NCBI GenBank assembly: GCA_024644775.1
Contig: JAHEHB010000364.1
Span: 1-5,651, forward strand
DNA: 5,651 nt
From: Deltaproteobacteria bacterium
GTDB taxonomy: Bacteria > Desulfobacterota > Desulfobacteria > Desulfobacterales > SURF-15
Reading direction: 5' to 3'
Under the pieces are notes generated by a model. The model was not told where the DNA came from. It made no database searches and saw nothing but the letters and a program-made list of their open reading frames with translations. Shown here piece by piece: positions 2,731 to 5,317 of the stretch; the stretch's first letter is position 1, and each line of letters starts with the position of its first letter. A program made the position numbers and the translations under genes.

Positions 2731-3870
2731 ATGGTACTTTATCCGGGAACTGAAAAAGAGGCGCGGATTTCAGCAGAAACCATGCAAAATATCGTCACGG
2801 ATATTTTCCAACGCTGCGGCATGGATATTTCCGATGCATCTCAACTTGCAGATACACTGATTGATGCCGATTTATGCGGCATTCATTCACACGGGGTCAT
2901 GCGGGTGCCGAACTATGTGAAACGGATGACGAAACAGGGGGTTGATCCAAGGGGCAAACCATCCATCGTTAAGGATTCGGGTTCGGTATTTGTCATCGAC
3001 GCCGGAAACAACATGGGGCAGATATCCGGGACGTATGCCATGCGAAACACCATCGAACGGGCCCGCACAACCGGTGTTGCCGTTGCAGCCGTCGGTGGAA
3101 GCAACCACTGCGGCGCTATGTATTACTATGCTCAGATGGCAATCGAAGAAGACATGATCGGGGTTGCCACCACCAATGCCCTGCCGACGATGGCTCCATG
3201 GGGCGGTTCCGAACGAATTCTCGGAATGAACCCCATTGCGGTAGCGATTCCGGCCGGGGAAGAAACGCCGTTTATCCTGGATACGGCGTTTGCAACGTCT
3301 TCCTTCGGTAAAATAACCGTTCTCGGACAAAAAGGGGTTTCCCTCCCTGAGGGATGGGGCATTGACAAAGAAGGCAATCCTACAACGGATCCGGCCAAAG
3401 TGCTCGACGGGGGAATGGTTCTTCCCATCGGCGGTCACAAAGGCTCAGGAATGGCGATGATTACGGGGATATTATCCACTCTGCTCTCCGGTGCGAAATA
3501 CGGCACCCAACTTGGAAACCTGGAGAAAGGTCCAACGGCCGGAGAGGACGGCCACTTTTTCATGGCGCTGAAAATCGCTGCATTCGAAACGGTGTCGGTT
3601 TTTAAACATCGAATGGATGAAGTCATTCGTGACGCAAAAAACAGCCGAAAGGCACCGGGAATAGCGCGAATCTTCATACCCGGTGAAATGGAAGCGGAAA
3701 CCAAATCCACTTATCTTAAAACCGGAATCCCGCTGAACGCAGAGACCCTTCACGGGGTGGTATCGACGGGAAGTTCACTAGGCGCCGATATTTCATCGCT
3801 GGAAGTGCATATCGATTCACTTCAGAATGCGGCGAACAAGAGTTTCAAAAAACCCGACCCGCTTACATAA
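2731..3870 (+). CDS. Ldh-family (malate/L-lactate dehydrogenase type) oxidoreductase
   Basis: This complete 379-residue enzyme belongs to the Ldh_2 family of NAD(P)-dependent oxidoreductases (relatives of AllD, YiaK, ComC and DpkA), which are unrelated to classical lactate dehydrogenases. Members interconvert 2-hydroxyacids and 2-oxoacids, or reduce cyclic imino acids, in the cytoplasm. Family signatures run in order: GIHSHGVMRVPNY (50-62, with Ser53, His54, Arg58), GGSNHCGAM (122-130, catalytic-type His126), TTNALPTMAPWGG (147-159), ILDTAFATSSFGKI (182-195), PEGWGIDKEGNPTTDP (206-221), LPIGGHKGSG (231-240, nucleotide-binding loop) and FIPGE (315-319). All expected blocks are present, so the enzyme looks intact. 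It is a little longer than usual (about 330-360 residues), with roughly 25 extra residues at the C-terminus. The start is set by GGGAGG at 2721-2726, four bases from the ATG. The exact substrate is not deducible. The enolase-superfamily fragment downstream hints at hydroxy-acid or sugar-acid catabolism. Confidence 0.93.
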   Translation: MVLYPGTEKEARISAETMQNIVTDIFQRCGMDISDASQLADTLIDADLCGIHSHGVMRVPNYVKRMTKQGVDPRGKPSIVKDSGSVFVIDAGNNMGQISGTYAMRNTIERARTTGVAVAAVGGSNHCGAMYYYAQMAIEEDMIGVATTNALPTMAPWGGSERILGMNPIAVAIPAGEETPFILDTAFATSSFGKITVLGQKGVSLPEGWGIDKEGNPTTDPAKVLDGGMVLPIGGHKGSGMAMITGILSTLLSGAKYGTQLGNLEKGPTAGEDGHFFMALKIAAFETVSVFKHRMDEVIRDAKNSRKAPGIARIFIPGEMEAETKSTYLKTGIPLNAETLHGVVSTGSSLGADISSLEVHIDSLQNAANKSFKKPDPLT

Positions 3871-3975: not shown

Positions 3976-4782
3976 CTATTCCGGATCCGGCTTCTTCCAT
4001 TGGTATGGCAATTCCTGAACCGTTCCCGGTTCGGTCATGGTTTTCAGGGCATCCAGCGCATCCAGGATGATGCGGCGCTGGCGCTTGATGTTGCCCGGCT
4101 CCCCGAACATGCAGCCTCGGGCAAACTTCACCTGTAAGGCCCGGGGAGGTTTGATGTGAGCCATTCTGTCCGGTGCGTTGCCCATGGAAATGGTGGGTAT
4201 ACCCGCCGCTTCAACCATCCGTTGAATCAGACCCACGGTCTGATGGCATTTGGGTCAGACCGGTACCAGGAATAAAACATCCACCCCTTCGGCCGTTATC
4301 TGGCGGATGACCTCCGGCACTGTCTTTGTGACCAGGTTCACCGCGTCGTTGACGTAGCTGAAGCTGTAATGCGTATCGGTCACGCTGCCGATGATTCCTT
4401 CTTTTTCAAGCTCCGTGAAACGATGGATGGGAAAGATGGTGTTGATGTCCTGCTCAGCAAGGCCGTGATCATAGTGTGAGTGAGCGATTCCAAGGTCCTC
4501 CTGGCGGACGGTTTTGGGGATTTCCCGAAAGGAGGTGTCTCCGTGGATGGACTCGGTGTCGAAGGCCGGTTGGCTGTCCTTCAGGTAGAACCCGCCGCTG
4601 GTGACCAGGGCAAAGGTTTGTTCCGAAGGCTCGCCCTTGTATGGGGTCCAGGGTACGTCTTCGGAAACTATTAAAGGATACCGCTTGACGATTTCCTTCA
4701 TGTTGCCCGCCCGAAATTCCGGCAAGCTCTCTTCGACCCATTTCTCGTAAGCTGCTTTAACCTTTATCAGATCGATCTTCAT
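3976..4782 (-). CDS. Selenoprotein of the glycine/sarcosine/betaine/D-proline reductase B family (Sec at TGA 4255-4257)
   Basis: Reading through the in-frame TGA gives one 268-residue protein with selenocysteine at position 176 in the motif VPV-U-P-K-C (U176, Cys179), a redox U-x-x-C pair. Family landmarks before it are VPWTPYKG (43-50), FALVTSGGFYLKD (57-69), HSHYDHG (101-107), IFPIHR (116-121) and EGIIGSVTDTHYSF (128-141). After it come HQTVGLIQRMVEAAGIPTIS and a FARGCMFGEPG block. This matches the GrdB/PrdB-like family. It is shorter than GrdB (about 430 residues) and nearer PrdB in size. Glycine, betaine and proline reductases use the Sec to attack the substrate, but this stand-alone member lacks GrdA, GrdC or PrdA neighbours here, so its substrate is unknown. 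I chose the ATG at 4782-4780 because AAGGA lies six bases upstream; an ATG at 4827 would add 15 residues without a good ribosome binding site. Codons and similarity continue across the TGA, and the stop is TAG at 3976-3978. Confidence 0.92.
4226..4244 (-). promoter_or_regulatory. Bacterial SECIS element (selenocysteine insertion hairpin)
   Basis: On the minus strand, ATCAGACC-GTG-GGTCTGAT forms a perfect 8-bp stem with a three-base loop, starting ten bases after the TGA codon. The loop lies 18 bases from the TGA and starts with G, which fits the known pattern for bacterial SECIS elements: hairpin inside the coding region just after UGA, a G in the first two loop bases, and loop distance of about 16-37 bases. 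It would bind SelB carrying Sec-tRNA. It is coding sequence as well, specifying the residues after the U-x-x-C motif. Confidence 0.85.
4255..4257 (-). other. In-frame TGA recoded as selenocysteine
   Basis: The minus-strand codon order is GTA CCG GTC TGA CCC AAA TGC. This places the TGA at the first position of a C-x-x-C-like redox motif, exactly where GrdB-family proteins carry Sec or Cys. The reading frame is open for 175 codons before it (from 4782) and 92 codons after it. Confidence 0.9.
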
Positions 4783-4951: not shown

Positions 4952-5317
4952 TGTACAAAGGTACAAAGCGATTTAATCACAGCAGGGGCCGTGGATATTG
5001 TTCAACCCGATGTAACCCGTGTGGGGGGAATAACCGAATGGATGAAAATTGCCCACTTTGCTTCAGCCCATGGGCTGAAAGTTGCCCCCCATGGTGTTCA
5101 GGAAATTCATACGTCATTGGCTGCAGCCATCGATAACGCTTTATATGTTGAATACGCCGTTTCCGACAATTATATGCAATCGCTCATGGACAAAGTATTT
5201 ACGGAGCCGCAAAACACAAAACATTTTGATGCCAACGGAATGATATCCGTTTCCGATATTCCCGGTCTGGGACTTGAAATTGATTGGGCGATTGCAAATA
5301 AATACCTCGTAAAATGA
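4952..5317 (+). pseudogene. 3' fragment of a mandelate racemase/muconate lactonizing (enolase superfamily) gene
   Basis: The open frame begins after a TGA at 4949-4951 and gives about 121 residues whose similarity to the C-terminal part of the enolase-superfamily barrel starts almost at once (DLITAGAVDIVQPDV). A GTG at 4991 could start a 108-residue product, but this would be a shard. What remains is well kept. QPD is followed 27 residues later by the His of VAPHG, the same spacing as the Asp270-His297 catalytic dyad of mandelate racemase. A Glu lies 20 residues after that His, matching Glu317. The N-terminal capping domain, the Lys-x-Lys bases and the three metal ligands are all absent; full-length members have about 350-400 residues. 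Without them the product cannot be catalytic. It is on the same strand as the Ldh-family gene, and full-length enzymes of this type are acid-sugar dehydratases or racemases. Truncation, rather than a sequencing frameshift, is favoured because no other frame upstream restores the missing part. Confidence 0.85.

Follow-up and report, generated by a model that had tools for sequence, protein, structure and literature searches.

A probable stand-alone selenoprotein of the GrdB/PrdB superfamily in deltaproteobacterial genomes

The selenoproteins PrdB and GrdB operate alongside a PrdA/GrdE-type subunit, which has a pyruvoyl group in the case of glycine and proline reductase. The selenolate of the known enzymes attacks carbon, and the C-N bond of glycine or sarcosine is polarised by a Schiff base. 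The corresponding subunits of betaine reductase (GrdI) and fluoroacetate reductase (FarE) are said to form no pyruvoyl group and, in the accessible part of that report, Schiff base polarisation is described as unnecessary for fluoroacetate (PMC10838667). From GrdI we infer that betaine would likewise need no Schiff base. In the fluoroacetate reductase FarB/FarE of Synergistota, FarB is a GrdB-family selenoprotein whose selenolate is proposed to attack a bond requiring no Schiff base, and its GrdE-type partner FarE is encoded in the same operon (PMC10838667).

Reports of selenocysteine (Sec)-containing "PrdB" sequences go back to 2005. Such PrdB-type proteins number 42 in the Sargasso Sea set and 235 in GOS, and "PrdB" is reported among the most frequent ocean selenoproteins (PMC1088965, PMC2398784). 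Also "proline reductase" is listed among the selenoproteins of Anaeromyxobacter and Geobacter uraniireducens (PMC1088965, PMC2398784, PMC1794560). Recoding is thus not new for the superfamily, since Sec-containing PrdB-like proteins have already been published. In the accessible text of these reports, the proteins from marine metagenomes, Anaeromyxobacter and G. uraniireducens have a U-x-x-C motif and come partly from outside the known Stickland fermenters; they are named proline reductase, are not set apart from true PrdB, and the partner subunit is not raised. A literature search of partial coverage yielded no statement that PrdB-like selenoproteins occur without a partner subunit, which is a weak negative. 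What is new here is that the clade of the gene described below is, by the criteria examined, distinct from both PrdB of proline reductase and GrdB, and that it occurs mostly without a partner.

The DNA analysed, referred to as the window, is a stretch of 5,651 nucleotides from a deltaproteobacterial contig (JAHEHB010000364.1). The features considered are the following:

3976..4782, minus strand: whole predicted selenoprotein gene, 268 codons including the Sec-UGA codon 176, plus the stop TAG at 3976-3978
4258..4782, minus strand: N-terminal 175 codons, the part given by standard annotation, with a GRDB domain match at residues 29-172
4255..4257, minus strand: in-frame UGA, predicted selenocysteine U176, from aligned relatives and paralogues
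4246..4248, minus strand: codon of Cys179, the Cys of the U-x-x-C redox pair, unchanged across all 13 aligned sequences
4226..4244, minus strand: predicted bacterial SECIS hairpin, stem AUCAGACC/GGUCUGAU, loop GUG
3976..4236, minus strand: GTG-started orphan ORF of 86 aa, the C-terminal part, an annotation artefact with an equivalent start in database protein P0122
4788..4797, minus strand: putative Shine-Dalgarno-like purine stretch AGGAAAGGAA, 5 nt ahead of the ATG, read by eye from the sequence
2731..3870, plus strand: Ldh_2 family dehydrogenase, convergent neighbour outside the system, not conserved as a neighbour
4991..5317, plus strand: enolase-superfamily (MR/MLE) remnant, divergent neighbour outside the system, ending in TGA

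The minus-strand frame from 4782 to 3976 has an ATG start, a single in-frame TGA at codon 176 (VPV-U-PKC) and a TAG end. Under translation table 11 it becomes two ORFs, the N-terminal one with its end at 4255 and the GTG-started one of 86 aa at 3976-4236. The first-pass annotation had described two same-frame minus-strand ORFs split by the TGA of VPV-TGA-PKC, and its coordinates, residue number and motif are all exact. It had further joined them into one protein with a U-x-x-C pair, and this stands: the pair is U176-x-x-C179, and the joined frame scores 149 bits with the PrdB profile TIGR04483 vs 87 and 47 bits for the separate halves. Elsewhere in the window, the talarate/galactarate dehydratase-like MR/MLE gene is represented by its C-terminal 108 residues alone, an apparent remnant that starts abruptly at 4991 and whose TGA stop lies at the family C-terminus. 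Two genes for alpha/beta hydrolases occupy the minus strand, a Hydrolase_4-like one at 2-952 that continues beyond the window edge and a DUF900 one at 1024-2370 with a lipoprotein-like start, as judged by eye.

A search for relatives, with each species represented by one genome, gave 16 loci, among which L001-L012 span the whole protein. The aligned codon, which the first-pass annotation had proposed to inspect for Sec or Cys, is TGA in all 12 complete relatives, and the frame continues to about the same C-terminus in each. The first-pass annotation had held that close homologues all stopping at this TGA would count against recoding; at the DNA level this is not what is seen, the frame continuing in 12/12 complete loci. 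Around the Sec codon VPxUPKCHQTVGLI, where x is V or A, is identical in 13/13 sequences. Between the window and L001 there are 31 synonymous and 9 non-synonymous differences in the 88 codons after the TGA, and 55 and 37, respectively, in the 170 codons before it. In 12/12 comparisons with the window the codons following the TGA show a larger synonymous to non-synonymous ratio than those preceding it, a pattern that points to purifying selection on a conserved frame past the TGA in all 12 complete loci. In three other loci (L013:2474-2983, L014:4047-4250 and L015:10001-10078, the last from an Olavius-associated Delta 1 symbiont) the match is confined to the N-terminal 170, 70 and 26 residues, respectively, beyond which the sequence is unrelated; they are either remnants or assembly faults. 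L016 was rejected as a chance match. In addition to its whole gene, G012 contains an 81%-identical piece of residues 192-266 (G012:C1:1344574-1344798). The contig of L005 belongs to a MAG with the label Chloroflexi; in the tree it falls together with L002 of Desulfobacterales, and it is either mis-binned or transferred.

The protein databases give a truncated picture of the family. All 120 homologues among the matches listed (589 in total) have as their C-terminus ...PV, which immediately precedes the TGA, and 109 of these 120 are 175 aa long. P0122 is a C-terminal orphan in the database, which starts at the equivalent internal codon and extends beyond the usual C-terminus. Both halves of the annotation fault that had been predicted, a truncated protein and an orphan C-terminal fragment, are thus seen in practice, with every one of the 120 listed database copies cut at the Sec codon.

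Wider sampling covered 395 genomes of the phylum of G012 (Deltaproteobacteria record), with up to 6 candidates scored per genome. The window protein is matched in 98 of the 395, in 84 of them at 60 bits or more. TGA is found in 130/132 matches spanning position 176, GrdB-type matches included, and where its exact place was examined, in 28 fetched paralogues, it is at the aligned codon in 27. The exception, L033 (L033:1909-1968), has GGA (Gly) at the aligned codon with an intact hairpin, either a recent mutation or a sequence error. One paralogue lineage (L032:1894-1953 and L044:1894-1953) has U-x-x-D (VPA-U-PLDHQSVGL), keeping Sec and SECIS with the second redox Cys replaced by Asp. Also, G002, G012 and G013 each contain, besides the window-type gene, 2-3 diverged TGA-containing paralogues, the motifs of which include TPA-U-PLCCRSVGL and TPA-U-GICNQSVGL.

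The RNA directly 3' of the UGA folds into AUCAGACC-GUG-GGUCUGAU, a stem of 8 bp with a 3-nt apical loop that begins with G followed by U. The spacing from the UGA to the loop is 18 nt and the MFE is -12.3 kcal/mol over a 45-nt stretch. According to the accessible part of one report, bacterial SECIS elements have 4-16 pairs, a loop of 3-9 nt, a spacing of 16-37 nt and an MFE of -7.5 or below, with G in the first two loop positions and usually G or U after it; the window hairpin lies within all of these published limits (PMC13188914). Folding energy alone is unremarkable (z -0.88, 33/200 shuffles as low). In 13/13 window-type sequences codons +4, +5, +8 and +9 show no base change at all. Synonymous differences, counted per comparable codon pair, amount to 0.256 for codons 0 to +9 and to 0.217-0.562 for the other ten-codon blocks, and the low variation around the hairpin is not unique, one other block being lower at 0.217.

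Covariation was assessed in 41 sequences (39 distinct), comprising 13 window-type sequences and the 28 paralogues with the best scores in the phylum sample. The stem is paired in 97.4% of the cells, with both sides changed in 20 cells, and the covariation is 0.263 vs 0.126 +/- 0.014 in shuffles, 0/500 of which are as high; slid stem controls are at most 50% paired. Columns 27/43 change from U-A to C-G in 7 sequences and columns 31/39 from U-A to A-U in 12, and each time one member of the pair is at a silent codon position. One of the five covariation measures, further pair types, has no excess (5 vs 5.8 shuffled, 498/500), and the top stem pair is open in 6/39 rows, including L010/L011. Taken from the sequence comparison, a SECIS hairpin that covaries across the paralogues very likely directs Sec insertion at UGA 176.

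The selenium machinery was sought in the 13 genomes behind L001-L013, which carry the gene or its remnant. SelB is over the cut-off in 11/13 (exceptions G001 and G003), SelA in 11/13 (exceptions G003 and G011) and SelD in 12/13 (exception G003), and tRNA-Sec is found in 11/13 (exceptions G002 and G010). G001 and G003 are small drafts of 2.0 and 2.4 Mb. In G002 and G010 no tRNA-Sec exceeded the gathering score in an RNA search with 150 candidates scored per genome, and a DNA probe was likewise without a match. All four components are over the cut-off together in 8/13 genomes. Each of the 15/15 SelD places over the cut-off itself contains one in-frame TGA. Absence of selB/selC had been named in the first-pass annotation as grounds for abandoning the proposal; with SelB and tRNA-Sec in 11 and 11 of the 13 relatives' genomes, no such grounds have emerged from these relatives. 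Because the TGA and the SECIS are conserved and the machinery is present in most of the relatives' genomes, the gene very likely encodes a selenoprotein.

Kinship with GRDB/PrdB proteins, proposed at the outset from the letters, is borne out by profile matches. Pfam GRDB (PF07355) matches residues 29-172 at 41 bits, above its gathering score of 22, and the match covers profile positions 200-344 of 347, so that the N-terminal half of GrdB is missing. The best NCBIfam model is PrdB (TIGR04483), matching residues 42-263 at 149.1 bits, below the equivalog cut-off of 300. The same model gives 135.8 bits for L007, 400.9 for E. gilvus PrdB of a prd operon and 310.2 for Peptoclostridium acidaminophilum PrdB. 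The GrdB models score 54.6 vs 602.2 (TIGR01917) and 57.1 vs 65.45 bits (TIGR01918), with only the C-terminal part of the model matched, and the 268 residues of the window protein fall short of a two-part GrdB of about 430. Although the P. acidaminophilum prdB (L050:6061-6774) clears the PrdB cut-off with 310 bits, no prdA is annotated on its plasmid within a distance of 6 kb. A 24% match is also found in a 4.8-kb Bacteriophage sp. record from human faeces (H21, MT838886.1:714-1418), which may be host DNA.

A tree of 68 rows was calculated with Sec written as Cys and with the GrdB rows and one PrdB row trimmed to their C-terminal 250-260 residues. The 13 window-type rows form one clade (support 100/100), and a branch with support 99/98 sets PrdB and GrdB apart from the remaining 55 rows. 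Among these 55 are the window clade, 40 paralogues and two alphaproteobacterial proteins with Cys. No grouping of the window clade with prd-operon PrdB was found in this tree. As the root is a midpoint root and three rows have long branches, only the separation is claimed here and no order of origin. By the profile scores, length and tree position examined, the window clade is judged to be neither PrdB nor GrdB.

The window protein and PrdB share a homologous core of about 220 residues, with Sec (or Cys) at the same place and U-x-x-C-H in both. Common to them are G81-D82, R86-E87, H101, D105, D112-x-N114, GEPG and LPY; the window clade and the Cys-type PrdB both also keep P89, C179, H180, G227-E-P-G230 and L258-P-Y. 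However, the identity is only 29-38%, the score is under the equivalog cut-off, and the PrdB motif TAG-U-GTCHRxAVIVQR differs from VPV-U-PKCHQTVGLIQR of the window protein, which in addition has an N-terminal extension, no PrdA and no prd operon. The C-terminal part of GrdB/GrdF/GrdH (PF07355, TIGR01917/01918) is likewise homologous, with Sec at the aligned position. The GrdB motif is given as U-x-x-C-x-x-C in the accessible part of one report (PMC13188914), whereas the second Cys is missing from the window clade, which has U-PKC-HQT in 13/13, and the GrdE/GrdA partners are missing in 11/13 genomes with the window-type gene. The alphaproteobacterial proteins annotated as "glycine/sarcosine/betaine reductase selenoprotein B family protein" (Haematobacter and Roseomonas plasmids) share one side of the tree with the window clade. 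These are about 30% identical to the window protein, have Cys in place of Sec (VPN-C-PxCHQT) and have no partner annotated within 5 kb.

The partner subunit was searched for with the PF09338 model, which detects PrdA of E. gilvus at 94 bits and of Terrisporobacter at 80 bits (cut-off 22). Among the 13 genomes with the gene or its remnant, PF09338 is present in two, G002 and G006, and in neither is it adjacent to the gene. GrdA (PF04723) is found in the same two genomes, both of which also have a full GrdB. In G006 PF09338, GrdA and GrdB share one contig, other than that of the window-type gene, and in G002 PF09338 and GrdA are 2.9 Mb distant from it. Neither PF09338 nor GrdA was found in the other 11 genomes. 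Absence from draft MAGs could reflect incompleteness; among the 11 are, however, G012, a single-chromosome record, and G007, an isolate of Desulfofustis glycolicus. Across the phylum sample PF09338 is present in 5/84 genomes with a match of at least 60 bits, and in 12/14 of those with weaker matches only, as expected for GrdB. The four other window genes (Ldh_2, the MR/MLE remnant and the two alpha/beta hydrolases) include no PF09338 member, and FarB, with FarE in its operon, differs from the window protein in this respect (PMC10838667). When the surroundings of the gene in the window and in L001-L013 were compared, no neighbour proved conserved, and a scan of 20 near neighbours gave a mixed assortment; the gene therefore behaves as a single-gene unit. 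With the PF09338 partner mostly missing and no conserved neighbour, the protein looks like a stand-alone selenoenzyme. The stand-alone character first suggested from the lack of a reductase subunit nearby thus extends from the neighbourhood to the whole genome in 11/13 cases. That the protein is both a selenoprotein and stand-alone is considered highly probable.

Two other explanations concern the TGA itself. Gene finders cut all 120 listed homologues (of 589) at it, and with gene remnants at three loci (L013, L014, L015) one might take it for a true stop, after which the C-terminal half is decaying or separately translated. A conserved frame under purifying selection past the TGA in 12/12 complete loci, the covarying SECIS and the Sec machinery in most of the relatives' genomes make this very improbable. 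Still less credible is a changed genetic code in which UGA stands for tryptophan or some other amino acid. The frame would be open whatever the TGA encodes, but relatives with a sense codon at this place have Cys, namely the PrdB Cys forms (P0124 and others, L087) and the two alphaproteobacterial forms, with a single case of Gly (L033), and the neighbouring enolase-family remnant ends in TGA where its family ends.

Other explanations accept the selenocysteine and concern the function. An ordinary Sec-containing PrdB or GrdB of D-proline or glycine/betaine reductase, with partner genes elsewhere in the genome, would explain why PrdB TIGR04483 is the best family match (residues 42-263) and why G002 and G006 do have PF09338 and GrdA genes, and the accessible literature lumps such sequences as "proline reductase PrdB" (PMC1088965, PMC2398784). 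Set against this are a score of 149 bits where the cut-off is 300 and PrdB of E. gilvus and P. acidaminophilum reach 401 and 310, the separate position of the window clade in the tree, the missing N-terminal half of GrdB, and the rarity of partners: PF09338 and GrdA are absent in 11/13 genomes, including G012 and D. glycolicus G007, and PF09338 occurs in only 5/84 genomes of the phylum sample with a match of at least 60 bits. This explanation is regarded as quite unlikely. The main rival to the mechanism proposed below is a plain thiol-disulfide or peroxide reductase, in which U-x-x-C would work as in thioredoxin- or peroxiredoxin-like proteins. The motif is tabulated as a thiol-redox motif in the available parts of two reports (PMC1088965, PMC2398784), and no conserved metabolic neighbours hint at a pathway. 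Yet G81, D82, R86, E87, H101, D105, D112 and N114 are common with Cys-type PrdB, which suggests a retained substrate pocket, and the L032 and L044 lineage keeps Sec with Asp as the second redox residue. The fold matches listed include no thioredoxin-fold chain, an absence that excludes nothing. On balance a plain thiol-redox function appears rather unlikely.

An AlphaFold model of the protein, calculated from 18 sequences with Sec as Cys, has a pLDDT of 89.8 and a pTM of 0.89, with alternating strands and helices. Position 176 follows the strand 169-174 and lies just before the helix 177-192; reactive cysteines and selenocysteines often sit at the N-terminus of a helix. A fold comparison of the model gave no informative match among the matches listed. 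For the stand-alone selenoenzyme the following course is proposed, its catalytic part by analogy with the family. SelB and Sec-tRNA would read UGA 176 as selenocysteine, guided by the SECIS hairpin immediately downstream, and the predicted product of 268 residues would consist of the GrdB/PrdB superfamily core domain and an N-terminal helical extension. The model and the alignment place the putative active Sec at a helix N-terminus with Cys three residues later. Judged from its absence in most carrier genomes, the protein would act without a PrdA/GrdE-type subunit (PF09338), and the selenolate may then attack a substrate that requires no activation by such a subunit. The intermediate, selenium-substrate or selenenyl-sulfide, would be resolved by Cys179 and an external dithiol such as thioredoxin, the whole being a one-subunit reductase in sulfate-reducing and related bacteria. 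Since a PF09338 subunit is lacking, the substrate should need no help of that kind, which favours a selenolate-dependent reductase of an activated or labile bond. Selenolate-driven reductive cleavage would be our best guess for the reaction; that the step is cleavage of a carbon-heteroatom bond is put forward tentatively, at somewhat less than even chances.

The window protein looks like part of a larger stand-alone selenoenzyme clade in deltaproteobacterial genomes. A window-type gene occurs in cultured D. glycolicus DSM 9705 (L007), and since the gene is compact, without a conserved partner and in a cultured bacterium, direct testing is feasible. Likened by their description in the accessible reports, the published Sec-containing "PrdB" possibly belong to the same clade. 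We lean slightly towards the broader reading of a large multi-paralogue clade of one-subunit selenoenzymes that have the selenolate half of the glycine/proline reductase machinery without the PrdA/GrdE half and reductively cleave substrates for which no Schiff base is required, with much of the marine-metagenome "PrdB" being the same enzyme and not proline reductase. If the clade is not proline reductase and the ocean "PrdB" belong to it, an abundant selenium-dependent activity lacks a known substrate, and proline fermentation would have been over-read in metagenomes.
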